A stretch of 64,000 nucleotides of DNA from Betaproteobacteria bacterium HGW-Betaproteobacteria-12. Its GTDB lineage: Bacteria > Pseudomonadota > Gammaproteobacteria > Burkholderiales > Rhodocyclaceae. The stretch is taken from contig PHCU01000001.1 in assembly GCA_002842345.1 (NCBI GenBank), positions 1-64,000 of the forward strand, read 5' to 3'. Numbering within the stretch: position 1 is the first letter of the stretch; each line of letters starts with the position of its first letter. Of the stretch, positions 361 to 17,155 are shown piece by piece. A program made the position numbers and the translations under genes. The notes beneath the pieces are model-generated. The model saw nothing but the letters and a program-made list of their open reading frames with translations, ran no database searches and was not told the DNA's origin.

Positions 361-830
361 GCCTGTCAGAAATTTTGTGTGTGAGGCATAACATGTCGCC
401 AAGGAGCATGTATGCCAAGCAAGACGAGCAAGAAGAAACCGGCAGCGGCGCTGCCCAGCATTCCCAAGGAACTCATTGATCAGATGGTCAGTGGCCCGAT
501 GGACGCCGAGGCGGTGAACGCCGCCTCGATGGCGTTCAAGAAAGCGCTGATCGAACGCATCCTGGGGGCCGAACTCAGCCATCATCTGGGTTACCTGCCC
601 GGTGCCGAGAAACCCGGCGAGATCGGCAACCCCCGCAACGGCGCGACCAGCAAGACCGTGCTGACTGAAGACGGGCCGCTGCGCATCGACATCCCGCTGG
701 ACCGCCAGGGCAGCTTCGAACCCCTACTCATTCCCAAGCACGAGCGCCGCTTCACCGGTTTCGACGACAAGATCGTGGCCATGTACGCCAGGTGGCATCA
801 GCGAAGCTTGTCCTGCGGGGGCTGGCCGCT
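361..830. mobile_element. IS256-like insertion remnant inside the IS5 copy
   Basis: The sequence from 361 (gcctgtcagaaattttgtgtg) looks like the outer end of an IS256-family element and abuts the broken IS5 gene. The transposase starts about 50 bp inside. IS256 coding homology ends near 792, and about 40 bp later the AraC gene begins, so the right end is gone. The arrangement implies insertion of an IS256-type element into an IS5-type element, followed by deletion up to the AraC gene. No target duplication can be checked because the other end is missing. Confidence 0.6.
412..792 (+). pseudogene. IS256-family transposase, N-terminal fragment
   Basis: About 127 residues match the N-terminus of IS256-family (transposase_mut) enzymes: a Lys-rich start, LIERILGAELSHHLGY, GNPRNGATSKTVLT, and HERRFTGFDDKIVAMYAR. 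The family normally continues with an R-G-M-T-type segment and the DDE catalytic domain, giving about 400 residues. Here it changes abruptly to unrelated sequence after MYAR, and the ORF closes at 909 inside the AraC gene on the other strand. All catalytic residues are lost, so it is inactive. Confidence 0.85.
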
Positions 831-831
831 C

Positions 832-1755
832 TTAATGGCTGTGTCGGTCTCTTGTCCAGGTGGATTCCCGCATCCGCTTGATATCTCGATTCGGGGGTTC
901 ACCGAATAGTCGGCTGTACTCCCGGCTGAACTGGGATGCGCTCTCATACCCGACACGCGTCGCCGCACTCCCTGCGTCCAGATTCTCATTGAGCATCAAC
1001 TGCCGGGCATCCAGCAGGCGCAGGTTCTTCAGGTACTGCAAGGGGCTCACGCCGACTACGGCACGAAAATGCTGCCGGAAGCTTGACGGACTCATGTGGG
1101 CTTTGGCCGCAAGATCATCCATCAGCACGTTCTCCGTGTAGTGCTGTTTCAGCCATGTCACCACCTTGGCAATTTGCTGGTTCGGCGAGCCGATCGCAAC
1201 GAGGCGGCGCAGGTTGGGGCCATGTCCTCCATTCAGCAGGCGGATGACGATCTCCTGCTGGATCAGGGGCGCGAGGAGGGGTATCAGCGACGGTTCGGCC
1301 AGCAGCCGGAGCAACCGGGTCAGCGCATCCTGCAGGCCAGCGTCCAGCGCCATGAGGGATATTCCCTGCATCGTGGAAGCGTGGAGTGGCGTCGCGAACT
1401 CCATTTCCGCCGCCAGCTGGGCGATGAGTCGCGCATCGAGTTCCAGCCACATCCCGAGGAAAGGTTCTGCAGCGCTGGCGCAAGTGACGTAGGCCACCAC
1501 GGGCATGTCCACGGTCGTGATAAGCGACTGTCCAGCCCCGTAGTCGAAGATCTCGTCGCCCCGTGTGATCCGCTTGCGGCCTTGCACGATCAGCACAAGG
1601 CCCAGGCCATAGATGCAAGGCTTCGGATCGGTGGTGGAACTGCAACGACGGAGCTTCAGTGCAGGAATCGGGGTGTCGTAGTCTCCGTCAGTTTGTGCAA
1701 TCTTGTCGATCAGGCTGACAAGCTCTCCGATGTCGGATCTTGCTGTAGAGATCAT
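832..1755 (-). CDS. AraC-family transcriptional regulator
   Basis: A 307-residue regulator. Residues about 20-180 form the AraC_N-type (PF06719-like) sensor half (GLGLVLIVQGRKRITRG). Residues about 195-295 carry the two-HTH AraC DNA-binding domain (MDDLAAKAHMSPSSFRQHFRAVVG, then SQFSREYSRLFGEPP). Length and domain order are normal, so it is intact although it sits 40 bp from IS debris. It is divergent from the OYE-type reductase across a 217-bp gap and most likely controls that gene. The effector is unknown. Confidence 0.88.
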   Translation of the reverse strand: MISTARSDIGELVSLIDKIAQTDGDYDTPIPALKLRRCSSTTDPKPCIYGLGLVLIVQGRKRITRGDEIFDYGAGQSLITTVDMPVVAYVTCASAAEPFLGMWLELDARLIAQLAAEMEFATPLHASTMQGISLMALDAGLQDALTRLLRLLAEPSLIPLLAPLIQQEIVIRLLNGGHGPNLRRLVAIGSPNQQIAKVVTWLKQHYTENVLMDDLAAKAHMSPSSFRQHFRAVVGVSPLQYLKNLRLLDARQLMLNENLDAGSAATRVGYESASQFSREYSRLFGEPPNRDIKRMRESTWTRDRHSH

Positions 1756-3336: not shown

Positions 3337-4113
3337 TCATTGATTCTTGAATACAGGTGGACGTTTATTCAGAAACGCATTCATCCCCTCTTTATTGTCA
3401 TCAAGGGCGAAGATTGAATGAAAGCTACGTCGCTCAAACAGAATTCCCTCGTTGAGGCTGCTTTCAAACGACCTGTTAATCGACTCCTTGATCATCATCG
3501 CCACCGGCAATGAGAACTGCGCTATGGACTGCGCTGCCTTCAGCGTTTCACTAAGCAGTTCCGAAGCAGGATAGATACGAGCTACCAGGCCTGCACGCTC
3601 CGCTTCGTCAGCATCAATTAAGCGCCCGGAAAGGCACATGTCCATCGCCTTGGCTTTGCTGATGGCACGGGGCAGGCGTTGTGTTCCTCCCGCCCCTGGC
3701 ATCGTCCCCAGCTTGATTTCTGGCTGACCGAACTTTGCGGAATCTGCGGCAAATATCATGTCGCACATCATGGCAAGTTCGCAGCCTCCGCCGAGCGCAA
3801 AACCCGCGACGGCAGCAATCACGGGTTTGCGACACGTCTTGATCCGCTCCCAGTTTCGCGTGATGTAGTCCGCTTTGTAGGCATCCATGAAACCGAGGCC
3901 GCTCATGGCCCCAATATCGGCGCCCGCCGCAAACGCCTTGTCGGATCCGGTAATCACGATGCAACCAATACGCTCATCGCTCTCAAAACCGTCAAGCGCA
4001 CTGGATAACTCATCAACGAGCTGATCGTTCAGAGCATTGAGTTGTTTGGGACGATTCAATGTGATCAGCCCGACCCTGCCATGGGTTTCCGTAATGATGT
4101 TTTCAAAACTCAT
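3337..4113 (-). CDS. Enoyl-CoA hydratase (crotonase family)
   Basis: A 258-residue crotonase. The oxyanion-hole segment AGFALGGGCELAM and both catalytic glutamates (CEL and GQPEIKLGTMPGAGGTQRL) are present, so hydration of trans-2-enoyl-CoA is the expected reaction. It is the last gene of the minus-strand run that starts with the TRAP binding protein at 11745 and lies 12 bp after the thiolase. With that thiolase and the SDR it completes a beta-oxidation set for the acid imported by the TRAP system. Acyl specificity cannot be read from sequence. Confidence 0.92.
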   Translation of the reverse strand: MSFENIITETHGRVGLITLNRPKQLNALNDQLVDELSSALDGFESDERIGCIVITGSDKAFAAGADIGAMSGLGFMDAYKADYITRNWERIKTCRKPVIAAVAGFALGGGCELAMMCDMIFAADSAKFGQPEIKLGTMPGAGGTQRLPRAISKAKAMDMCLSGRLIDADEAERAGLVARIYPASELLSETLKAAQSIAQFSLPVAMMIKESINRSFESSLNEGILFERRSFHSIFALDDNKEGMNAFLNKRPPVFKNQ

Positions 4114-4125
4114 TGGAACCTCGAC

Positions 4126-5319
4126 TCAAAGCATTTCAAGTGCGAGCGCCGTGGCTTCGCCGCCACCGATGCACAGCGAGGCGACACCACGCTTCTTGCC
4201 ATACTTCTTCAGCGCGCCGAGCAGCGTGACGACGATGCGGGCGCCGGAGGCGCCAATCGGGTGGCCCAGCGCACAGGCACCACCGTGGATGTTGACCTTG
4301 GCCGGATCGAGCTTGAGGTCGTGCAGCGCCGCCATGGTGACCACGGCGAAGGCTTCGTTGATCTCGTACAGATCGACCGATTCCGCGCTCCAGCCGGTCT
4401 TGGCGAACAGCTTCTGCATGGCGCCGACCGGGGCCGACGGAAACAGCGCCGGCATGCCGGCATTGGTGGTGTGGCCGACGATGCGGGCGAGCGGCTGCAG
4501 GCCCAGCTTGTCGGCCTGCGAGGCGCGCATCAGCACCAGCGCGGCGGCGCCGTCGGAAATCGACGAGGAATTGGCGGCGGTGACGGAGCCATCCTTCTTG
4601 AAGGCCGGCTTTAGGGTCGGGATCTTGTCCACATTGACGGCGAACGGGCCTTCGTCCTTGTCGATGACGACATCGCCCTTCCTGCCGGCGACGGTGACGG
4701 GGGCGATTTCCCAGGCGAAGCTGCCATTGTTGCTCGCTTCGATGGCGCGGGTAGTCGAGCGGACGGCGAATTCGTCCTGGGCTTCACGGGTGAAGCCGTA
4801 GGAGGAAGCGCACTCTTCGGCAAAGGTCCCCATCAGGCGGCCACGGGTTTCCTTGCCGTAGGCGTCTTCCAGGCCGTCGAGGAACATGTGGTCGAGGATC
4901 TGACCATGGCCGAGGCGGTAGCCGCCACGGGCCTTGGGCAGCAGGTAGGGAGCGTTGGTCATCGACTCCATGCCGCCGACTACGGCGACGCCGTAGGAGC
5001 CGGCGAGGATGCCGTCGTGGCCGAGCATGGTGGCCTTCATCGCCGAACCGCAGACCTTGTGGATGGTCGCGCAGCCGGCGGTGATCGGCAGGCCGGCCTG
5101 CAGCGCGGCCTGGCGGGCCGGGGCCTGACCCTGACCGGCTTGCAGCACGCAGCCCAGCAGCACTTCGTCGACCAGATTGGCATCGATGGCGGCGCGCTCG
5201 ATGGCGGCCTTGATGGCGACGGCGCCGAGATTGGCGGCGGTCAGGCTGGAAAAGCCACCCTGGAACGAGCCCATGGCGGTGCGGGCGGCGGAAACGATAA
5301 CGATCGGGTCTTGGGACAT
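4126..5319 (-). CDS. Acetyl-CoA C-acyltransferase (thiolase II type)
   Basis: A 397-residue thiolase. The nucleophilic Cys is in TIHKVCGSAMKA, the His in NEAFAVV/GHPIGASG context, and the second Cys in SLCIGGGEATA. The start at 5319 is chosen because AGGAGA lies upstream and MSQDPIVIVSAARTAMG is the standard N-terminus; the 22 extra residues in the track overlap the neighbouring SDR gene. It cleaves 3-oxoacyl-CoA to acetyl-CoA plus a shortened acyl-CoA and is tightly packed with the SDR and hydratase genes. Confidence 0.93.
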   Translation of the reverse strand: MSQDPIVIVSAARTAMGSFQGGFSSLTAANLGAVAIKAAIERAAIDANLVDEVLLGCVLQAGQGQAPARQAALQAGLPITAGCATIHKVCGSAMKATMLGHDGILAGSYGVAVVGGMESMTNAPYLLPKARGGYRLGHGQILDHMFLDGLEDAYGKETRGRLMGTFAEECASSYGFTREAQDEFAVRSTTRAIEASNNGSFAWEIAPVTVAGRKGDVVIDKDEGPFAVNVDKIPTLKPAFKKDGSVTAANSSSISDGAAALVLMRASQADKLGLQPLARIVGHTTNAGMPALFPSAPVGAMQKLFAKTGWSAESVDLYEINEAFAVVTMAALHDLKLDPAKVNIHGGACALGHPIGASGARIVVTLLGALKKYGKKRGVASLCIGGGEATALALEML

Positions 5320-5335
5320 TTCTGTTCTCCTGAAA

Positions 5336-6100
5336 TTACTTGGCCGCCATGCGGATCGCGCCATCCATGCGGATGACTTCACCGTTGAGGTATTGATTAC
5401 TGAAAATGTGCTCGACCAGCGCGGCGTATTCGGCTGGCTTGCCCATGCGTGACGGGAAAGGAACCATCTTGCCGAGCGCCTCCTGAACTTCCGGCGGCAT
5501 GCCCATCAGCATCGGGGTTTCCATGATGCCGGGGGCGATGGTCATGACACGGATGCCGGTGCGGGCGAGTTCGCGGGCGATCGGCAGGGTCATGGCGACC
5601 ACGCCGCCCTTGGATGCGGCGTAGGCAGCCTGGCCGAGCTGGCCGTCGAAGGCTGCGACCGAGGCGGTGCTGACGATGACGCCGCGCTCGCCGGTATCGT
5701 CCGCTTCGCTGGCGCTCATGATTTCAGCGGCCAGACGGATCATGTTGAAGCTGCCGACGAGGTTGATGGTGATGGTGCGGGCGAAGCTTTCCAGTTTGTG
5801 AGCGCCTTCCTTGCCAACCACCTTTTCAGCCGGCGCAACGCCCGCGCAATTCACGAGGCCGCGCAACTGCCCCATCGACTGGGCGATGGCGAAGGCGTTG
5901 CGGGCACTGTCGTCACTGGTGACATCGGTCTGCACGAAGCGGGTATTAGCGCCCAACTCGGCCTCGATCCGGGCTCCGGCCTCGGGATTAACGTCGGCCA
6001 GCACGACTTTGCCACCCCGCTCGACGATCATCCTGGCGGTGCCGGCGCCCAGTCCGGAGGCGCCGCCAGTCACCACGAAAACGTTGTTTTCAATTTTCAT
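5336..6100 (-). CDS. SDR, 3-hydroxyacyl-CoA dehydrogenase type-2-like
   Basis: Short-chain dehydrogenase of 254 residues with TGGASGLG (NAD site), LVNCAGVAP, and the catalytic [11 protein letters not shown]...YAASKGG set. The acidic residue in VLADVN after the second strand favours NAD+. The sequence resembles the HSD17B10-like 3-hydroxyacyl-CoA dehydrogenases, which oxidise 3-hydroxyacyl-CoA, including branched substrates. Its position between acyl-CoA ligase and thiolase fits that role. An alcohol dehydrogenase on a free ring alcohol is an alternative. Confidence 0.88.
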
Positions 6101-6118: not shown

Positions 6119-7771
6119 TCAAACCGCAAGCTTGGTAATGGCTTCCTGACTCCCGGCCATTGCACGCAAGCGGAATTTTTGGATCTTGCCGGTTGCTGTT
6201 TTGGGCAACTCGACAAACACCACGCGGCGCGGGCACTTGAAATGCGCCAGGCTTCGACGACAGAAAGCGATGACATCGTCCTCGGAAATATTTGACGCAT
6301 CTGCCTTCAACTCGACAAATGCGCAGGGGGTTTCACCCCATTTCTCGTCAGGTTGAGCAACAACGGCGGCGTACAGGACACCAGGCATGCGATAGATGAC
6401 TTCCTCGACCTCGACGGAGGAGATGTTCTCGCCACCGGAAATGATGACGTCCTTGGAGCGATCGGTAATCTGCATATAGCCATCGGGATGGACAATCGCG
6501 ACATCTCCCGTATGGAACCAGCCGCCTTCGAAAGCCTTGGCAGTGGACGCGGGGTTCTTCAGATAGCCCATCATGACCGTATTGCCCCGGATCAGAATCT
6601 CGCCGGATGATTGAGCGTCCCTCGGGGTTGGTTCAAGCGTCACCGTATCGCCAACCATGAGATGCTCCAAAGCCGCTGCCCGTACCCCTTGGCGCGCTTT
6701 CAAACGCCCTTGCTGTTCGGCCGGCAACGCATCCCACTCGTCGTGCCAGGCACAACTGACCGGGGTGCCGGAGATTTCCGTAATCCCGAATACATGATCG
6801 ACATCGAATCCCATGGCGCCAACCGCCTCAAGTACGGCTGCCGGCGGTGGGGAACCTGCCGTCAGGACCCGTACCCGGCGCGGCAACGGCCGGCGTTCCG
6901 AAGCCGGGGTACTGGCAATACCGGACAGGATGATGGGCGCCGCGCAGAAGTGATCAACGCCATGCTCGAAGATCGCCGAGAAAACATTGGCCGCAGTGAC
7001 CTTGCGCAGGCAAACGTGCGTTCCGGCCGCCGCCGTGATAGCCCAGGTAAAACACCAGCCGTTGGCGTGGAACATGGGAAGCGTCCACAAATAAATCGGC
7101 GCACGCGGGAGCGGCCAGTTCGTCATTTGCAGCAGGCTCATCAGGTAGGTACCCCGATGGCTGGGCACGACCCCCTTCGGGTCGCCGGTGGTCCCGGATG
7201 TGTAGTTCAGGGCAATCGGTGACCATTCATCGGTCGGCCAATGGCCGGGGAATTGTGGATCGCCACTCGCCAACAACGACTCGTAGTCGGCTTCACCGAT
7301 CGAAGGGCCATCCGGGGCTTCATGATCGTTGATGTCGATGACTCGCGGTGGATTGGGTACCGCCAGTAGTGCCTTCTGAATAAGCGGCGCAAATTCCCGG
7401 TCCACCAGCAAAAGCTTGCATTCCCCATGACGCAGGATGAAGGCCACGCCTTCAGCATCCAGGCGGCAATTGATGGCATTCAGGACGGCACCCGACAGCG
7501 GAATACCAAAGTGCGCCTCCAGCATGGCAGGGGTGTTGGGCGCGATGATCGAGACCGTGTCGCCCGGAAGGATGCCCAGCTTGGTCAGCGCCGAAGCCAG
7601 GCGATAACAACGATCCCGCGTTTCTGCCCAGGATTGCTTGAGGGAGCCGTGAACGACGGCGGTGCGGCGCGGATAGACCTCTGCCGCACGATCGAGAAAC
7701 CCCAGCGGGGTCATTGGCACGAAATTGGCCGGAGTCTTCTCCAGGCCTTGAGAATAAGCATTTGCGCTCAT
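6119..7771 (-). CDS. Acyl-CoA synthetase (ANL superfamily, fatty-acyl type)
   Basis: A 550-residue AMP-forming ligase. The P-loop is LNYTSGTTGDPKGV, the A5 motif VFGITEISG, the A7 motif GWFHTGDVAIVHPDGYMQITDRSKD, and the catalytic Lys is in PKTATGKIQK. MPMFHANGW-type sequence (LPMFHANGWCF) is typical of medium/short-chain or aromatic ligases close to DMSP/fatty-acid ligase groups. It would activate the carboxylic acid taken up by the TRAP system. It is 14 bp from the nitroreductase gene and 18 bp before the SDR, so clearly operonic. Confidence 0.92.
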   Translation of the reverse strand: MSANAYSQGLEKTPANFVPMTPLGFLDRAAEVYPRRTAVVHGSLKQSWAETRDRCYRLASALTKLGILPGDTVSIIAPNTPAMLEAHFGIPLSGAVLNAINCRLDAEGVAFILRHGECKLLLVDREFAPLIQKALLAVPNPPRVIDINDHEAPDGPSIGEADYESLLASGDPQFPGHWPTDEWSPIALNYTSGTTGDPKGVVPSHRGTYLMSLLQMTNWPLPRAPIYLWTLPMFHANGWCFTWAITAAAGTHVCLRKVTAANVFSAIFEHGVDHFCAAPIILSGIASTPASERRPLPRRVRVLTAGSPPPAAVLEAVGAMGFDVDHVFGITEISGTPVSCAWHDEWDALPAEQQGRLKARQGVRAAALEHLMVGDTVTLEPTPRDAQSSGEILIRGNTVMMGYLKNPASTAKAFEGGWFHTGDVAIVHPDGYMQITDRSKDVIISGGENISSVEVEEVIYRMPGVLYAAVVAQPDEKWGETPCAFVELKADASNISEDDVIAFCRRSLAHFKCPRRVVFVELPKTATGKIQKFRLRAMAGSQEAITKLAV

Positions 7772-7785
7772 GGTTTTGTCTCCTT

Positions 7786-8514
7786 TTATCGATCGTGATA
7801 GGTGGTGAAATCGACAACTGGAATGCGATCAGAGACCAGGCTGTTTTCGATACAGGTGTGATCGGCATACCCCAGGCTCATGCCGCAGACGAACATCTGG
7901 CTGTCGGGAATGGCGAGTTCGCGGGCAATGACCTTATGAAAGGCATTGAATGCAGCCTGGGGGCAGGTATCGAGTCCGCGACCACGGGCTGCGACCATGA
8001 TGCTTTGCAGGAACATGCCGTAATCAATCAGACTGCCTCGCCCCATGCCACGGTCGATGGTGAACATCAGGCCGACCGGCGCCCCGAAGAATGTGTAGTT
8101 CCTGCCGTGCTGGGCATGCATACGAACCTTGTCGGACTTTTCAATGCCCAGCAGGCTGTACAGATCCCAGCCCACTTTGCGCCGCCGGTCGATGAACGGG
8201 GAGACCCACTTTTGCGGGTAGTAGTCGTATGGCTCTTCCTGCTCAGCCATCAGGGACGGGTCGTTGAAGACGTGAAGAATGGCGTTGCTCAGCCTGTCTT
8301 TGGCCGCGCCGGTCACCACATGAACCTGCCAGGGCTGGGTATTCACGCCGGAGGCGCAGTAGCGCGCCACATTCAAAATCGCTTCGACTTCGCTCATGTC
8401 GACAGCGTTGGGGAGAAAGGCGCGTATTGAGCGACGCGAAGCCAGCGCCCAATCGACCGACTCTCGCAGCGCGTCAGTGGGGATATTTTCAGGAGGGGTA
8501 ACTCGTTTATTCAT
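7786..8514 (-). CDS. Nitroreductase-family flavoprotein
   Basis: A 242-residue member of the NfsA/FRP-like fold, with ASRRSIRAFLP (FMN phosphate site), CASGVNTQPWQVHVVTG, and a C-terminal GMSLGYAD segment. The track start (8532) is a TTG; the ATG six codons in (8514) gives the usual MNKRVTPP-type start and is preferred. The family reduces nitro groups, quinones or conjugated C=C bonds with NAD(P)H. Inside an acyl-CoA degradation operon, reduction of an unsaturated ring or enone intermediate is plausible but unproven. Confidence 0.85.
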   Translation of the reverse strand: MNKRVTPPENIPTDALRESVDWALASRRSIRAFLPNAVDMSEVEAILNVARYCASGVNTQPWQVHVVTGAAKDRLSNAILHVFNDPSLMAEQEEPYDYYPQKWVSPFIDRRRKVGWDLYSLLGIEKSDKVRMHAQHGRNYTFFGAPVGLMFTIDRGMGRGSLIDYGMFLQSIMVAARGRGLDTCPQAAFNAFHKVIARELAIPDSQMFVCGMSLGYADHTCIENSLVSDRIPVVDFTTYHDR

Positions 8515-8620
8515 TTGGCTAATCTCAAACAATGTCGCTGATTTACGGAGATGGCGAAGGGGTAAATCGTTCCCCTCGCCGCCCTGACTGGAGTGTCTGT
8601 AATGCGTTAGGAAAGACCGG

Positions 8621-10690
8621 TCACTGCATGTTGTTCGGCAGCCAGAGCACGATTTGCGGGAAGATCGCGATCAACAGCAGATTCAGCAGCAGGAGAATGA
8701 CAAAAGGCAGCGCCCCCATCACGATGTCCCGGAAGGGCACAGAGGCATTCAGGCCACGTAGGACGAACAGGATGATTCCCACCGGCGGCGTGATCAGGCC
8801 GATTTCCGCCACCATCATTAGGGCGATGCCAAACCAGATGGCGTCATAGCCGGCCAATGCAACTAGCGGGAAGGTGATGCTGACGGTCATCAGGATCATC
8901 GAAATCGGATCGATGAACATGCCCAGCACCACGTAGATTCCGACAATCCCGACCATTAGCAACCAGGGTGCCAAATCCAGGGCCTTGACGACCTCGACCA
9001 TCACTTGGGGAACGCGAGCGTAATCAACAACCCAGCCGAAAATGCCTGAACCAACGACGATAATGAGGACGGAGCTGGTCAGTACCGCGGTCTCGGCCAG
9101 GGACTCGGTGATCATCTTCCAGGTGAGTTGGCGGCGAAACGCCACAATCAGTGCCGAGATGGCCGCACCAACTGCTCCGGCCTCTGTCGGCGTGGCGATC
9201 CCGAGATAGAGGACGGAGAAAACGGACGTGATCAGAATCACGAAGGGCAACACCGGAATGAATGCGTCAAGCTTCTCTTTCCAGGTGTATCGGCGCGTTT
9301 CTCCAGCCGAACCCGGCACCAGAATCGACCATCCCAGGACCATGAGCATCATGCTGACCAACACGACCAGGCCGGGAATAATGCCCGCAGCAAACAGGAG
9401 GGTTACCGGTGCACCAACGGCTGCGCCGTAAATGATGAGAGGGATGCTCGGTGGAATCAGAATGCCCAGCGTGCCGCCGCCGGCAATAGCCCCCATGGTC
9501 ATACGTGGGCTGTAGCCGCGGGAAATCATTTCCTGTCCAGCGGTTTTCCCGATGGTCGCTGCCGTCGCGATGCTCGAGCCGGAGAATGCGGCAAAAATGC
9601 CACCGGCGCCGATGGTGGCGTGTGCCAGACCACCCGGCAAGCGTCCCATCCAGGCCGTCAATGCGTTAAAGAGACCAACGGTGATTCCTGAACGCATCAG
9701 GATGCTACCCATCAGGATAAACATCGGTACTGCTGAATACGTAAAGCTGTTTGCCCCATTCCAGAGGCGATCGGCAACCGCCGACAACTGCTGCAGGGGC
9801 AACAGGAAGGCCAGACCAAGAAGACCGGTCAGCCCCAAACCCAATGCCACTTCCATGCCCAAACCAAGAAAAACGATGAGGGCAACGAGTAACAGCAACC
9901 CGACCTCCAGGGAGCTGGCACCTGACGTTGCGGCATAGGCGAATGCCCCAACGGTCAGCGAAAGCGTTACGGAGAGAGCCATACGCCAGCCGTGATGAAG
10001 ACCTGCGCTAATGATGCATGCGCCGGCAATCACCACCAGACCTGAACTGACACGCGAACCAAGGAATTCGAAACTGTGATTGCCGATCAAGATGGCAAGC
10101 AGGCAACCCAAAATAACGGTCGAATGCGATATCCACTGCGCAGCCCGCCTTAACCCTGCCGAGTGGCGATCCATCCGGTTGAGCATCGCGATCAACAGAA
10201 CGGCCATGCCAAGGAGCACCATTGATTGCGGAATCCACAGCGGTACAGACAGCAAGCCCCAACTGCGAGAATCGATGGTGTACTCGGACCAAACGAAACG
10301 CACCAATTGCCAGACAGAGACTGCGACGAAAAAGACGCCCAGCCACTCGGCAAAATTCATCACCGGTTGCCTCAGTTTCGCGGGGAGCATATCCACTGCA
10401 AACTCAATGCGGATATGCTCCTTGCGCCGATAAGCCAGCCCCAGCGACAGGAAGACAATGCCGACTACCAGATAGGTCGAGAACTCGGTAACCCAATAGG
10501 TCGGTTCATTGAAAAAATACCGGGAAATCACCTCGTAGGCCACGATGACGAGCAGCAAGGCCACCATCAATGCTCCTATGCCGCCCGTCACCGAAGTAAG
10601 GTGTCGCACATCCAAGAGGTGCGGCCCAAATACCGGCCGCGACATGTCTGTCACCACCGGATTTTGCCGAGAATCAATGTATTCGGACAT
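8621..10690 (-). CDS. TRAP transporter fused permease (DctQ-DctM)
   Basis: A 689-residue polytopic protein. Residues about 30-185 form the four-helix DctQ-like small subunit (VISRYFFNEPTYWVTEFSTYLVVG). Extra hydrophobic helices join it to the DctM-like large subunit at about 270-689, with the family signature FAAFSGSSIATAATIG and SIPLIIYGAAVGAP. Small and large subunits are normally separate, but natural fusions are common. With the binding protein encoded just upstream it forms a sodium-dependent uptake system for an organic acid across the inner membrane. AGGAC precedes the ATG. Confidence 0.93.
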   Translation of the reverse strand: MSEYIDSRQNPVVTDMSRPVFGPHLLDVRHLTSVTGGIGALMVALLLVIVAYEVISRYFFNEPTYWVTEFSTYLVVGIVFLSLGLAYRRKEHIRIEFAVDMLPAKLRQPVMNFAEWLGVFFVAVSVWQLVRFVWSEYTIDSRSWGLLSVPLWIPQSMVLLGMAVLLIAMLNRMDRHSAGLRRAAQWISHSTVILGCLLAILIGNHSFEFLGSRVSSGLVVIAGACIISAGLHHGWRMALSVTLSLTVGAFAYAATSGASSLEVGLLLLVALIVFLGLGMEVALGLGLTGLLGLAFLLPLQQLSAVADRLWNGANSFTYSAVPMFILMGSILMRSGITVGLFNALTAWMGRLPGGLAHATIGAGGIFAAFSGSSIATAATIGKTAGQEMISRGYSPRMTMGAIAGGGTLGILIPPSIPLIIYGAAVGAPVTLLFAAGIIPGLVVLVSMMLMVLGWSILVPGSAGETRRYTWKEKLDAFIPVLPFVILITSVFSVLYLGIATPTEAGAVGAAISALIVAFRRQLTWKMITESLAETAVLTSSVLIIVVGSGIFGWVVDYARVPQVMVEVVKALDLAPWLLMVGIVGIYVVLGMFIDPISMILMTVSITFPLVALAGYDAIWFGIALMMVAEIGLITPPVGIILFVLRGLNASVPFRDIVMGALPFVILLLLNLLLIAIFPQIVLWLPNNMQ

Positions 10691-10719: not shown

Positions 10720-11745
10720 TTACTGCTGCGCAGTACGGGACGTTTCGCGCACCCGCTTGAGGATTGCGCTACCGTCGAACCCCTTTTCGTTGGCGCGGCG
10801 TACCCAGGCTTCAGTTACCGGATTAACCGCGGCGGGAGTGAAGATCGTGGCACGCTGGGTTTTGTCTGCGGCCCAGACGTTCGACCCCTTTTTACGCATG
10901 CCTTCGATGCACTCGCCAGAATTGCTCGCGTAGTCCTTCCACATCTTCTGCTCGATTTCCTTGCCAACCCGCGTCAGCGTGTTCTGGGCAGCCGGTGAAA
11001 GGCTTTTCCATACATCCTGGTTGATCAGCACCGCCCAGCCCTGGATAGGACCAATTCCCCAGTCCTGAACATTTGTGGCACTTCTCCAAAGCTCTTGGTG
11101 ATAGGCGTAACAAGCAGGCGTAAACAATCCATCAATAACGCGACGCTCCAGACCGGCGGCAATTTCGGCAGCATCGAGGGGAGTAGGACGTGCGCCGAGG
11201 GCCGCAATAAATTGTGCCGTCTCGGCGTTATGGACACGGATCTTCATTCCCTGAAAATCCTGGAGGGATTTCACGGGCTTCGTCGTCAGCAACAGGTGCG
11301 GCGACCAGGCCCCCTCCGCCAGAGGGATGGCATTCCAGTTCTTTTGCCAGATCCGGCGCAGATCTTCGCGCCAGAAACCCTCCAGGGCAGCCTGATATTC
11401 CGCCTGCGTTTGAATCACACCGGGGAGGCTCTGCACCCCCATGAGCGGCTCCGACCCCGAGATATACGGATGCACGCCGAGTACCAGATCGACTCGTCCC
11501 TCTCGAATCGCCGGCGATAGTTGCGCACCTTTGAGCAACGAGTCGTTTACGACGATCGTCACCCCTTCCGCCTTCAGTGCCTCATTGGCTTTTTCGGCGA
11601 AGCGCTTGGTCACGATATCGGCCGTTGTTCCTGGCACCGTCATCGTACCGAGGGTCAATTGACGGGCTTCTGCATGCAGGCTGGTGAGCGTCATGAGCGC
11701 CGCCGCGGCAATCCCTGTCCAGCCAAATTTCAGATTCTTGGTCAT
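10720..11745 (-). CDS. TRAP transporter substrate-binding protein (DctP family)
   Basis: Periplasmic solute receptor of 341 residues, with an N-terminal signal peptide (FGWTGIAAAALMTLTSLHAEA) and the DctP core (MKIRVHNAETAQFIAALGARPTPLDAAEIAAGLERRVIDG). The conserved Arg of the ligand-carboxylate site is expected in the MKIRVHN segment. GGAGACAAGGAA lies directly before the ATG. It is first in the 11745-to-3337 operon, and TRAP receptor plus acyl-CoA ligase suggests an organic acid as inducer and substrate. Confidence 0.92.
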   Translation of the reverse strand: MTKNLKFGWTGIAAAALMTLTSLHAEARQLTLGTMTVPGTTADIVTKRFAEKANEALKAEGVTIVVNDSLLKGAQLSPAIREGRVDLVLGVHPYISGSEPLMGVQSLPGVIQTQAEYQAALEGFWREDLRRIWQKNWNAIPLAEGAWSPHLLLTTKPVKSLQDFQGMKIRVHNAETAQFIAALGARPTPLDAAEIAAGLERRVIDGLFTPACYAYHQELWRSATNVQDWGIGPIQGWAVLINQDVWKSLSPAAQNTLTRVGKEIEQKMWKDYASNSGECIEGMRKKGSNVWAADKTQRATIFTPAAVNPVTEAWVRRANEKGFDGSAILKRVRETSRTAQQ

Positions 11746-12145
11746 TTCCTTGTCTCCTAAATGTCGGTGAGAAGACCATCGGACCTGTGCCCGAAGATCT
11801 CGGGACTAAGTATTGCACGCAAAAACAGAAATGCGCAATAACGAAATTCACACTTATCGTTTGTGCACATTTGTGGGATTGCGATATGCTTGGAAGAAGC
11901 GGCGCGAGTAACGCAAACTGCGGCGCTCTTCATCGCGTCGCAAGGAGGAAGTAATCCGATTCGCCGAATGGATGCGACTAGCGCCTACTGCCTTCACCCA
12001 GCTGCTGCGCTTCGCATGTTTCGGAGCCACATTGAGATCGGCGAGCAGATATCACACAGTTGATTCAGTAAAATGCCCTTGAACCCGCCCTCATCAGGAC
12101 GGGGTGCTTGCACCACACTCACTGACCACACCGGAACATCAAGAA
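11746..12145. promoter_or_regulatory. Divergent intergenic region between TRAP operon and TetR-type regulator
   Basis: About 400 bp without a supported gene. It must hold promoters for the TRAP operon (leftward) and the regulator gene (rightward). AT-rich stretches lie near 11820-11880 (CACACTTATCGTTTGTGCAC contains a loose CACA/TGTG dyad), but no strong palindrome or clear sigma-70 pair stands out. The 14-bp operator of the main regulon is absent. Confidence 0.4.
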
Positions 12146-13021
12146 ATGCTGATGACAAAAGAAAACAGCCTTGCCGAAAATGCAAAAACCGAGGCGGTTG
12201 GCGGGCGCGTTAGCATCCATAGAAGGAAGAACAGTCGCTATTGGCAATGCCAATGCACTGTTAACGGCAAGACTCATCGTGTCAGTGCTCGAACCGGCGA
12301 TCTTGCTGAGGCGCAGCGCTTTGCAACGCTTTGGTACCTGCGCCTCTCGGAGGAACCGGGCGGCGAAACACAGGTCGTTCCAACAGAATCGGAAGCGCAA
12401 GCGAATGGCGGGCAATTGCCTCAAGGCATAGGCTCCACGAGCATTCATGGCAAAACGGACCGGATCATTTCGGCGGCGGTTGCCCTTATTTCGGATTTTG
12501 GGTTCCGCAATACCCAAATGAGCACCATCGCTGAGCATTCAGGGTTGGCACTCAGTACGCTTTACCGCCACTTTCATTCAAAGAACGATCTCATGGTGGC
12601 AGTCGTTGCCAAGGTATCTGGACACGAGGTTAACGTCGCAGCCGGTGCAGCGATGGCAGAGGGCTCTCCGCCCCACCGTCTTGAGATGGCGATCCGAACG
12701 TTTGCGCTTCGGGCAATTCGTGGCCGCAAGCGTGCCCACGCGTTGGTCGCTGAGCCTGTCGATGCCGAGATTGAAACAGAGCGTTTGCGTTACCGTCGCC
12801 GATTGATGCGTGTGTACGAAACGGTGATCCGTGAAGGTATTCAGGATGGGAGCATTAGAGAGCAAGACCCCGAGGTATCTGCTGGGTGTATTGTCGGGGC
12901 CATGTTTGAGGGCCTGGTTGGACCTCTAGCGCTACAAATCGAACTATCAGAAGACGAAAGAGTCAGCCGCGCGGAGCGAATCATTGCCTTCTGTATGCGA
13001 GGGGTGCTGGGGAGCAGTTGA
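12146..13021 (+). CDS. TetR-family regulator with integrase arm-like N-terminal domain
   Basis: A 291-residue protein. Residues about 20-67 (RVSIHRRKNSRYWQCQCTVN...RTGDLAEAQRFATLWYLRL) look like the arm-type DNA-binding domain at the N-terminus of tyrosine recombinases. A polar linker follows. Residues about 103-150 are a TetR helix-turn-helix (TDRIISAAVALISDFGFRNTQMSTIAEHSGLALSTLYRHFHSKNDLM), then a helical ligand domain. Ordinary TetR proteins are about 200 residues. The track start is a GTG at 12104; the ATG at 12146 (or 12152) is preferred. It is divergent from the TRAP operon and likely controls it and the following MaoC gene. Confidence 0.8.
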   Translation: MLMTKENSLAENAKTEAVGGRVSIHRRKNSRYWQCQCTVNGKTHRVSARTGDLAEAQRFATLWYLRLSEEPGGETQVVPTESEAQANGGQLPQGIGSTSIHGKTDRIISAAVALISDFGFRNTQMSTIAEHSGLALSTLYRHFHSKNDLMVAVVAKVSGHEVNVAAGAAMAEGSPPHRLEMAIRTFALRAIRGRKRAHALVAEPVDAEIETERLRYRRRLMRVYETVIREGIQDGSIREQDPEVSAGCIVGAMFEGLVGPLALQIELSEDERVSRAERIIAFCMRGVLGSS

Positions 13022-13055: not shown

Positions 13056-13517
13056 ATGAAGAAAAATCCAATGCTCTCTTGGGAGGACTTCAGTGTTGGG
13101 CGCGCCTGGAGTCATGGATTCCACACAGTGACCGAAGCTGAAATCATTGCCTTTGCCAAACAGCACGACCCCCTGGCAATGCACCTTGGCCCTGAGCTCG
13201 CTTGTGATACACCGCTAGGTATATTTTGCGCTAGCGGTATTCATACGTTGGCAATTGCGCAGCGCTCGCTCTGTGATGCGCTGCTCAAATACACGCACGT
13301 AGTGGCTGGCAGTGGGATAGATAAGGTCAGGATGCGTGCACCTGTGGTGCCTGAAGATAAGCTTCAGGTACGGATACAAGTTGCCCACACTTGGTTGCAT
13401 CCGCAAAATCCCGCATACGGCTGGATCACGCTGTTGGTGGAGGTTCTTCGAGACAGCGATTTTATTGTTATGGACTATCAGCTAACTATCCTGGTGCTCA
13501 GAGCCAAACTCTTGTAA
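13056..13517 (+). CDS. MaoC-like hotdog acyl-CoA dehydratase
   Basis: A 153-residue MaoC-family protein. The hydratase signature FAKQHDPLAMHLGPELA keeps the catalytic Asp and His spacing (FxxxxDPxxxH). The ATG at 13056 follows AGAGG and replaces the longer track start, which overlaps the regulator gene. It probably hydrates an enoyl-CoA or acts as a thioesterase-fold relative. It is co-directional with the TetR-type gene, 34 bp downstream, and divergent from the TRAP/beta-oxidation operon. Substrate unknown. Confidence 0.82.
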   Translation: MKKNPMLSWEDFSVGRAWSHGFHTVTEAEIIAFAKQHDPLAMHLGPELACDTPLGIFCASGIHTLAIAQRSLCDALLKYTHVVAGSGIDKVRMRAPVVPEDKLQVRIQVAHTWLHPQNPAYGWITLLVEVLRDSDFIVMDYQLTILVLRAKLL

Positions 13518-13584: not shown

Positions 13585-14457
13585 TCAGGGCTGGTAGTAG
13601 CCGACGCCGATCATGTAGTCGCCGACGCGCAGCAGGAAGGTCCGCTTGCTCTCGATCTTGCCGGTTACCGGGTTACGCCACTGATAGTCGAGCGAGCCCT
13701 CGCCCTTGCTGGTGACGATGTCGATCATCTGGCGGATGATCGGCTTGCCGTTGGCGTCGGCCAGGTCGGAGACGTTCCTGCCGACCAGCCGGGGCATGGC
13801 GCCGTGCGCATGCATGCGCATATCCTTGATACCGACGACAAAGACATAGGTATCGTCCTGGACGAAGCCGCCGTTGATGTCATTGAAGCGCGGGAAAACC
13901 TGCGGCCCCAGGCGTTTGACCTCGTCCGCGGCCCGCCAGAGGATGGACTTCGCCTGTTCCGGCGTACCCCGCGGCATGTAGTAGCCGACGGCGACGATGC
14001 GCTCGCCGACCGCCTGATAGAAGGCCACCTTGCGTTCCACCGTGCCCCGCTGAAGGTTCAGCCAGCGATACTCGAGGGTGCCGCTACCCTTGCTCTTGGC
14101 CCCTTCGAGCAGTTCCTGGAATAGCTTCTTCCCATCGGGATCCTTGTAATCCAGCATGTTGCGCCCGATGAAATTGAACGAGGCGCCACCGCTGGCCAAC
14201 AGAACTCCGTCGCTACCGACCACATAGACGTACTGCTCACCGTCGGTAAATTCGCCGGTCCGGCTGAAAGCCGCATAGGCACGCTCGCCATTTTCCTTCA
14301 GGTGGGCCACGGCCTTGGCGAGCAAGGCTTTGGCCCTGACCTGGTCATCCGCAGCGGCAGCCGGCGCGACCGTAGCCCCCGGAGCGGCCGCCTGGGCCAG
14401 CGGCACGGCGATGGCCAGTGCCGCGATGGACAACAGAATCCTGGCTTGCTTGATCAT
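13585..14457 (-). CDS. Periplasmic double cache-domain protein
   Basis: A 290-residue protein with a signal peptide (MIKQARILLSIAALAIAVPLAQAAA) and two tandem cache-like repeats. Each repeat has the pattern VGRN/IGRNM-D-x-x-x-x-G-K...G-x-G-x-x-x-Y-x-W...VGYY, at about residues 70-165 and 195-290. There is no membrane anchor or kinase/chemoreceptor output domain, so it is a free periplasmic ligand-binding protein. The ATG at 14457 is preferred over 14538 because the signal peptide begins there. It may be the last gene of the 22317-to-13585 minus-strand run or have its own promoter in the 128-bp gap. Confidence 0.8.
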   Translation of the reverse strand: MIKQARILLSIAALAIAVPLAQAAAPGATVAPAAAADDQVRAKALLAKAVAHLKENGERAYAAFSRTGEFTDGEQYVYVVGSDGVLLASGGASFNFIGRNMLDYKDPDGKKLFQELLEGAKSKGSGTLEYRWLNLQRGTVERKVAFYQAVGERIVAVGYYMPRGTPEQAKSILWRAADEVKRLGPQVFPRFNDINGGFVQDDTYVFVVGIKDMRMHAHGAMPRLVGRNVSDLADANGKPIIRQMIDIVTSKGEGSLDYQWRNPVTGKIESKRTFLLRVGDYMIGVGYYQP

Positions 14458-14585
14458 GGAAACCCCCAATTGGTAATGATACGTACAGTATACATCGATC
14501 CTGTTTTGCTGAAAGTTTCCATTCGCCAGCCGTCTCACTGCGCAAAATCAGGAAACCTTGCCCGCTGCCAGGAACCGCTTGGCAC

Positions 14586-15041
14586 TCAGGCAGTGCTTCG
14601 GCAGCGAATCATCCCGGTCGACTCGATCTCGGCAATCGACTGACCAAGCTGGTTGGTGATATCCCAATGCCAGTGCACCAGACCGACCTCCGGCCGGCTC
14701 TCGGAACGCCGCGCGCTGAGCACCAGGGCCCGAAGACTCAGCGAGTCGCCGGGACGCACGGGCTGCTTCCAGCGCACCTTGTCCACACCGGGCGAACCGA
14801 GGCCCGCCGTTTCCAGCATGAAACCATCGCAGACCAGGCGCATGGCCATGGCGCAGACATGCCACCCACTGGCGATCAACGAGCCGAAACGGGAATGCTT
14901 GGCGAGTTCGGCATCGATGTGAAAATCCTGGGGATCGAACTTCAGCGCGAAGTCGATGATTTCCTCTGCGCTCACCGTAACCGGACCGCAGAGCCGCTTG
15001 TCGCCGACGGGAAAGTCTTCCCAAAAATATTTCGCAGTCAC
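14586..15041 (-). CDS. MaoC-family dehydratase
   Basis: A 151-residue hotdog protein beginning MTAKYFWEDFPVGD, a very typical MaoC start. The catalytic segment FALKFDPQDFHIDAELAKHSRFGSLIASGWH contains the Asp-His pair. It would hydrate a 2-enoyl-CoA with (R)-stereochemistry, complementing the crotonase-type hydratase at 18866. It lies downstream of the acetoacetyl-CoA synthetase gene on the same strand. Confidence 0.88.
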   Translation of the reverse strand: MTAKYFWEDFPVGDKRLCGPVTVSAEEIIDFALKFDPQDFHIDAELAKHSRFGSLIASGWHVCAMAMRLVCDGFMLETAGLGSPGVDKVRWKQPVRPGDSLSLRALVLSARRSESRPEVGLVHWHWDITNQLGQSIAEIESTGMIRCRSTA

Positions 15042-15164
15042 GTTTTTCCCCTTTGAATTGTCGGATCAAGCCGGCAGGCCGAGGCCAGCAGCCATAGCAA
15101 CGAGCAGGATCAATGCGCCATGGCCGATCATCCGGCGCTGGAAGCTTGCGATCACCGCTCCCGC

Positions 15165-17155
15165 TCAGCTGGCCAATTCGGCACGGTTGCGGTACTGCTC
15201 CAGTGCCTCCGGATTGGCCAGGGCCTCGGTATTTTTGACCAACTCGCCATGGACGACCTGGCGCACGGCAATCTCGACGATCTTGCCGCTCTTGGTGCGC
15301 GGAATGTCGCCGACCTGGACGATCCGCGCCGGCACGTGCCGCGGCGTGGTGTTTTCCCGGATCGCCTGGCGGATACGGTCTTCGAGGGCCTTGTCGAGTT
15401 GCACTCCGTCGCGCAGCTTGACGAACAGCACGACCCGGACGTCGCCGGGGCAGTCGGCGGCCAGTTCTGACCGATGACGATGGACTCGACGACTTCGCCG
15501 ACACGATCGACCTGGCGATAGATCTCGGAGGTGCCGATACGTACCCCGCCGGGATTGAGCGTGGCATCCGAGCGCCCGTAGATTATGTAGCCGCCATGCG
15601 CGGTGATCTCGCAATAGTCGCCATGGCACCAGATGCCTTCGAAGCGCGCGAAATAGGCACTGTGGTACTTCTCGCCCTGCGGATCGTTCCAGAAATACAG
15701 CGGCTGGGTGGGGAACGGCCGCGTACACACCAGCTCCCCCTTCTGCTGGCGCACCGGCTGGCCACGGTCGTCAAGAACCTCAACCGCCATGCCCAGCAGC
15801 TTGCCCTGGATCTCGCCACGCCACAGCGGGGTCACCGGGTTGCCACCGACGAAGGAGCCGAGCAGATCGGTGCCGCCGGAGATGGAGGAGAGATGGACAT
15901 CCTTCTTGAAGCTGCCATAGACGTAGTCGTAGCCCTCAGCCAGCAAGGGGCTGCCCGTCGAATAGATGACTTCCACCGAGGCGAAGTCGTGGGTTGCGTT
16001 GGGTTTCATGCCGGCCTTCTCGCAGGCCTCGATAAACTTGGCCGAGGTGCCGAAATGGGTGAAACGCTCGGCCTGCATGTAGTCGAACAGGATGTTGTTG
16101 TTGGCAGCGAACGGGCTGCCGTCGTAAAGCATCAGCGCAGCGCCGGAAGCCAGCCCGGAGGTCAGCCAGTTCCACATCACCCAGCTGCAGGTGGCGAAGT
16201 AGAAGAGGCGGCTGCCCGGATTGATGCCGCCATGCAGTCGATGCTCCTTGAGATGCAGCAGCAGCGCGCCGCCCGCCCGGTGCACGATGCACTTGGGCAC
16301 GCCGGTGGTGCCGGAGGAGAAGACGATGTAGAGCGGATGATCGAAAGGCAGCTGGGCGAATTCGACCGTCGCGACATCGGCGAACGGTGCGACGAAATCG
16401 TCCAGCATCGAGGCTCCGCGAATACCGTCCAGATCCCAGCTCGATGCGATATAGGGACAAACCACCACCTGCTTGACCGACGGCAGCGCAGCAACGATCT
16501 CCCGCACCTTGGACAGTGATTCATGCTCCTTGCCGTTGTAGAAATAGCCATCGGCAACGAAGAGAACGACTGGCTCAATTTGCCCGAAGCGGTCGAGTAC
16601 GCCTTGAGGTCCGAAATCGGGTGACGCCGAACTGAAGATGGCGCCAATGCTGGACGCTGCCAGCATGGCGACGATCGTCTCCGGCATGTTGGGCATGTAG
16701 GCGGCGACACGGTCGCCCTCCTTGACACCGCTGGCACGGAGGGCTGCCGCCAGACGGGCGACCGCCAGGAACAGGTCATCGCGACTAAGGCGCCGTTTGA
16801 CGCGATCCTCGCCCCAGAACACGATGCCGTCTGCCGGACCACGCCGCCGCAGCAGGTTCTCGGCAAAGTTCAGGCGCGCATCGGGAAACCACTGCACCGC
16901 TTCCATGGTGCTGCCTTCGACCAGCACGCGCTCGCCACGCGAGGCCGCAACGACACCGCAGAAATCCCAGAGCGACGTCCAGAATTCGTCCAAATGCTCG
17001 ATCGACCACTGATGCATGTCGTCGAAGCTGGCGAATGAGCGCTGCCACTGTTTCTCGGCCGCCAGACAGAAGCGGGCCATGTTGCTGGCAGCGATGCCAT
17101 TCGCCGAGGGAACCCAGGTCGCTGTGGCTGAATCAAGATTGGTTGGGAGGGGCAT
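15165..17155 (-). pseudogene. Acetoacetyl-CoA synthetase, frameshifted near its C-terminus
   Basis: Residues 1 to about 560 are a normal acetoacetate-CoA ligase (HQWSIEHLDEFWTSLWDFCG start, IVFSSGTTGVPKCIVHRAGG P-loop, [30 protein letters not shown]). After [10 protein letters not shown] the frame turns to Ser/Arg-rich nonsense. The correct C-terminus ([16 protein letters not shown] ... [15 protein letters not shown], with the catalytic Lys) continues in the -1-offset ORF ending at 15165. One base is missing near 15467 (CAG-AACTGG where CAG-GAACTGG is expected). It is either a sequencing error or a recent inactivation. The function would be acetoacetate activation. Confidence 0.85.

Follow-up and report, generated by a model that had tools for sequence, protein, structure and literature searches.

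A predicted fusion of an integrase arm-type domain to a TetR-family regulator opposite a TRAP-transporter operon

Results

Gene content of the locus

We analysed a window of 64,000 nucleotides, the whole stretch at positions 1 to 64,000 of contig PHCU01000001.1 from Betaproteobacteria bacterium HGW-Betaproteobacteria-12. An uninterrupted open reading frame at 12146-13021 on the forward strand is predicted to encode a regulator of 291 amino acids in which an arm domain precedes a TetR core. Its orthologue, 79% identical, lies at L001:6001-6897 in a Zoogloeaceae MAG (G866) from another genus of the same family, and the fusion was found in these two genera of one family and in two genomes only. 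The regulator stands opposite an operon of the TRAP-transporter/CoA-ligase/beta-oxidation type, which is encoded on the reverse strand. The first gene of this operon codes for the TRAP transporter solute-binding protein DctP (10720-11745, PF03480, 89% identical in L001), and beyond it lie a fused DctQ-DctM permease (8621-10690, PF04290 and PF06808), a nitroreductase-family protein (7786-8532, PF00881), an AMP-binding CoA ligase (6119-7771, PF00501), a short-chain dehydrogenase or SDR (5336-6100, PF00106), a thiolase (4126-5382, PF00108) and an enoyl-CoA hydratase (3337-4113, PF00378). A gene for a MaoC-like dehydratase (13056-13517, forward strand, PF01575) begins 34 bp downstream of the regulator, with which it is probably co-transcribed. 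Both genomes share DctP, DctQM, the nitroreductase and the CoA ligase on one side of the regulator (81-91% identity) and the MaoC-like gene downstream of it on the other (42%).

Two further observations concern this side of the locus. A second MaoC-like dehydratase gene (14586-15041, reverse strand) lies about 1 kb from the first on the opposite strand, with an open reading frame at 13585-14538 (reverse strand) between them, and the first of the pair is far less conserved in L001 than its neighbours. Next to them, an acetoacetyl-CoA-synthetase-like gene (15152-17155 and 15165-15728, both reverse strand) has an apparent frameshift at about 15440-15460, which leaves its C-terminal part in another frame and appears to be either an assembly error or the mark of a pseudogene.

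The TetR core

Residues 100-291 (12443-13018, forward strand) form the TetR core. Its helix-turn-helix (HTH), for which a first-pass annotation had given residues 103-150, is confirmed and placed by PF00440 at residues 107-153 (12464-12604, forward strand), with 50.9 bits against a cut-off of 24 (E=1.3e-13). It is followed by an all-helical C-terminal ligand/dimer domain that scores 29.9 bits against 26.4 for PF17932 (TetR_C_24), a result with which the structural model and Foldseek agree, and the presence of both parts assigns the protein to the TetR/AcrR family. The Foldseek matches of the full-length model are TetR regulators, including FadR, KstR and FasR, and these three rank high among the neighbours of the core, both by structure and by profile; none of the NCBIfam equivalog cut-offs was reached (46.4 against 200 bits for NF053878, FadR of Bacillus). 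Neither the catalytic domain (PF00589) nor the SAM-like core-binding domain (PF14659) of integrases matched anywhere in the 291-residue protein, and the fusion protein is therefore not a recombinase.

The N-terminal domain resembles the arm of tyrosine integrases

The N-terminal segment had been proposed to be the arm-type domain of a tyrosine recombinase, with boundaries at residues 20-67. Our comparisons bear out the identification and the location, and extend the domain slightly, to residues 16-70 or so (12191-12355, forward strand). A tblastn search of plasmids with residues 19-73 (55 aa) returned a Rhizobium plasmid integrase with 49% identity over 49 aa (E=3e-7), together with two further plasmid-borne integrases (39%, E=7e-5, and 39%, E=2e-4). 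The matched proteins are full-length integrases: the PHROG profile phrog_1 covers the two that were tested from residues 11-13 through the catalytic region, and several members of this close integrase group have SAM-like and/or catalytic domains by Pfam. The same profile, named 'integrase', also matches the N-terminus of the fusion (E=0.0015, profile positions 106-154 of 611). Residues 1-93 had no match among Pfam or NCBIfam models, the curated Pfam domains of the arm class included, and the close integrases likewise have no Pfam match in that region; searched against PDB sequences, the arm profile found a chance match only.

A six-row arm profile gives the window segment E=3e-30, and its other matches are integrases; because one of its rows is the window sequence, independent support comes from the pairwise tblastn result. 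When arm profiles were searched against nearly 400 phylum, 400 order, 300 family and 370 class genomes, in sets that overlap, almost only integrases were recovered. Over all the loci collected, 72 arm-matching frames carry an integrase catalytic region and 7 carry TetR, the latter reducing to 2 genes only, that of the window and that of L001 (also collected as L075). Another 15 frames have neither by the same test, and most are truncated or cut-off pieces of integrases; one of them (L133) is an integrase by Pfam and another (L118) is a cytochrome b. A Shinella match (H15, covering residues 31-186) was considered as a second fusion and rejected as an ordinary TetR protein. The positions common to the arm alignments are G, R-R, W-x-C, G, R and A-x3-A. 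The fusion retains the invariant or near-invariant R27, W33, C35, G41 and R45, and in the nearly invariant column T48 the fusions have A or S. Judged from the tblastn matches and these alignments, residues 16-70 are clearly homologous to the N-terminal arm domain of one group of tyrosine integrases, joined here to a complete TetR regulator.

AlphaFold gave the same fold for the arm whether residues 1-95 or the full protein were modelled, with strands at 22-26, 33-39 and 42-47 and a helix at 53-68/69 (pLDDT ~88-96). This three-stranded sheet followed by a helix is what is expected of an arm-type domain; for the 95-residue model Foldseek returned no match at E<=0.001. Its best two PDB matches are AP2 domains of Plasmodium, statistically weak at E=0.13 and 0.23, and among the viral matches, also weak (E 0.07-0.3), are models of AP2/ERF, HNH-endonuclease and integrase type. 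Lambda integrase contacts distal DNA through its N-terminal domain, which has been described as an AP2 domain (PMC3537659). The matches of AP2 and integrase type are consistent with the assignment and are support for it, not proof. In the full-length model most of the TetR core exceeds pLDDT 90, and residues 72-97 are below 50. The latter fall in a linker of residues 71-99 (12356-12442, forward strand) that is predicted to be disordered.

Conservation of the two modules and the translation start

Between the window gene and its L001 orthologue the arm is 89% identical (dN 0.07, dS 1.36) and the TetR core 85% (dN 0.10, dS >1.3), the dS values being near saturation and rough, whereas identity in the linker falls to 33% (residues 71-103, dN 0.68). 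By this measure the arm is as constrained as the TetR core and the linker is not. Such values across two genera imply that the arm has long been retained under selection, and the substitution pattern shows both modules as kept under purifying selection in the two. The in-frame ATG, GTG and TTG starts common to both genes are at residues 1, 3 and 125 only, the last of them inside the HTH, so that a start after residue 95, which would have removed the arm from the protein, is not credible and the arm should be translated.

A conserved palindrome before the operon

The divergent region between the regulator and dctP is 400 bp long. It contains, at 11811-11840, a candidate operator, TATTGCAC-N14-GCGCAATA, with the 30-bp palindromic consensus TATTGCRC-N14-GYGCAATA. 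L001 has a perfect 8+8 palindrome in the same place (L001:5547-5576) with a different spacer, and when the columns of the aligned block were shuffled 400 times, 1 shuffle yielded one as good. Even with up to 2 mismatches allowed, the 4.5-Mb genome has no other match to the window palindrome. This palindrome lies 66-95 bp from the start of DctP and just over 300 bp from that of the regulator. Its half-site centres are 22 bp apart, a spacing wider than is usual for a single TetR dimer, which would fit two dimers, or one dimer with flanking contacts by the arms. Two further half-site-like elements occur near 11862-11884 and are partly, and less well, conserved in the aligned block of L001. On sequence grounds, then, both the position of the regulator opposite the operon and the conserved palindrome before that operon are established.

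The palindrome could instead be a promoter element or be bound by another factor. In a survey of Streptomyces, TetR regulators more than 200 bp from a divergent gene were often not its controller, with known exceptions at 280-898 bp (PMC3511530); the spacing of 400 bp found here is beyond that rule.

TetR-only relatives

Proteins with a TetR core 47-52% identical to that of the fusion occur on Cupriavidus and Paraburkholderia megaplasmids (L071-L074). They are about 215 aa long, start about 20 residues before the HTH and have no arm. Beside them are homologues of the thiolase (62-69% identical to that of the window operon) and the SDR (59-69%), and in 3 of the 4 loci also of the nitroreductase (45-71%). 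Since these TetR-only proteins adjoin homologous catabolic genes, the arm was most likely added later to a pre-existing regulator of the pathway. The TetR-only loci differ from the window in having other transporters, and neither the palindrome nor any operator shared with the fusion gene was found upstream of these genes. Elsewhere in the order, relatives of the nitroreductase were not within such an operon in the 14 regions examined and so do not help in tracing the regulator.

As to the source of the arm, the window's own genome has no integrase with a close arm, and a donor is therefore not visible there. The domain capture from a mobile element that had been suggested stands as far as an integrase is the source, and not for an insertion sequence. 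The remnants at the left edge of the window, to which the first-pass annotation had pointed, come down to an N-terminal fragment at 412-909 (forward strand) that looks, from its sequence, like an IS256-type transposase; it lies about 11 kb away and provides no evidence on the fusion.

Discussion

Both modules of this protein are already known, and it is their combination that is new. Its TetR core resembles the fatty-acid and acyl-CoA regulators FadR (Bacillus), KstR and FasR in its HTH, its all-helical ligand/dimer core and its adjoining CoA-pathway genes, but those regulators have no N-terminal arm domain. Its arm resembles those of the tyrosine integrases of Rhizobium pMK-3, Asticcacaulis pASEM-1 and Novosphingobium pSA1 (33-44% identical over ~55 residues), where it is likewise N-terminal; these proteins, unlike the fusion, continue into SAM-like core-binding and catalytic domains. 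Mobile-element DNA-binding domains have seeded transcription factors in eukaryotes. The plant ALOG domain, derived from DIRS1-type recombinases, and AP2 domains are such cases of recruitment (PMC3537659). The arm-TetR protein is alike in reusing a recombinase-derived DNA-binding domain in a regulator; ALOG, however, is a different (helical) recombinase domain, is eukaryotic and is not joined to a complete bacterial regulator. No published report of an integrase-arm/TetR fusion was found in the literature searched, a body that leaves most subscription journals outside it. Because both parts have been kept by selection in two genera, the sequences point to a real and as yet rare instance in which a regulator has captured the DNA-binding domain of an integrase. 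The fusion is testable, and together with its unfused relatives at comparable operons it makes a compact natural experiment on the gain of a second DNA-binding module and on the effect of that module on the operator.

We think it probable that the protein is a pathway-specific TetR-family regulator that has acquired the arm of a tyrosine integrase and acts as a two-module, local regulator of the divergent operon. The TetR dimer would sense an acyl-CoA or a related intermediate of the pathway and would control the TRAP/CoA-ligase/beta-oxidation-type operon, probably by repression. With less certainty, the flexibly tethered arm of each subunit might make further sequence-specific contacts within the operator or immediately next to it; these could raise affinity and specificity, and the arms would not bridge remote sites.

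An arm that no longer binds DNA sequence-specifically, and that serves instead in, for example, protein contact, oligomerisation or protein stabilisation, seems unlikely. The linker would allow the arm to act independently, and the change of T48 is in keeping with such a role, but the other near-invariant positions are retained and the constraint on the arm equals that on the TetR core.

Slightly less probable again is that the arm bridges two distant DNA sites in a loop, with the TetR dimer on one and the arms on the other, as the first-pass annotation had envisaged. Lambda integrase offers the precedent, its N-terminal AP2-type domain contacting distantly located DNA segments (PMC3537659), and the partly conserved elements near 11862-11884 might be a second site. 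Against this, the disordered tether is only about 26-30 residues long, the sole well-supported site is the one conserved 30-bp palindrome, the intergenic region of the window has no direct repeats, and no pair of distant, conserved sites came to light. We are equally doubtful of the fuller version, in which one regulator follows lambda-type integrase logic, its dimeric core on the operator and its tethered arms on separate arm-type sites, in a higher-order complex that spans the 400 bp of divergent promoter DNA.

It is very improbable that an element once inserted near the beginning of a TetR gene and left the N-terminal segment behind without a function: similar 5' joins do exist, as in the arm-like domains on the cytochrome b genes described below, one version of which has many stops, but the conservation of the arm across two genera, which implies long retention under selection, largely refutes it. 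A chance resemblance to integrase arms, or a true start after residue 95, is scarcely conceivable, for even if Pfam and NCBIfam call no domain there, the tblastn and profile results, the shared start codons and the conservation of the arm together refute this reading.

Returning to the acquired arm, one plausible route to the TetR fusion is that an arm stayed behind at the 5' end of the gene or was captured there, and arm-like domains at other genes are relevant here. In one genome (G1387, contig C5) an integrase-arm-like domain (E=1.2e-9) is in frame on the N-terminus of a cytochrome b (L118:1495-3078, forward strand), directly downstream of the Rieske gene. This fusion is present in four genomes (L118 and L145-L147) of one small-genome gammaproteobacterial genus; over their first 130 residues the four proteins share 88-99% identity. 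In most relatives cytochrome b has no arm, and the version in G1469 contains numerous stops. This suggests that an integrative element, or what remains of one, sits at the 5' end of the cytochrome b gene, and in turn that integrase arms may stay behind at the 5' ends of unrelated genes or be captured there. Finally, short proteins consisting only of the arm and part of the SAM-like domain were found at L025:3980-4417, on a Bradyrhizobium ottawaense plasmid, and at L028:1339-1860; they could be truncated integrases or stand-alone DNA-binding proteins, and the L025 kind recurs in five Bradyrhizobium plasmid records.
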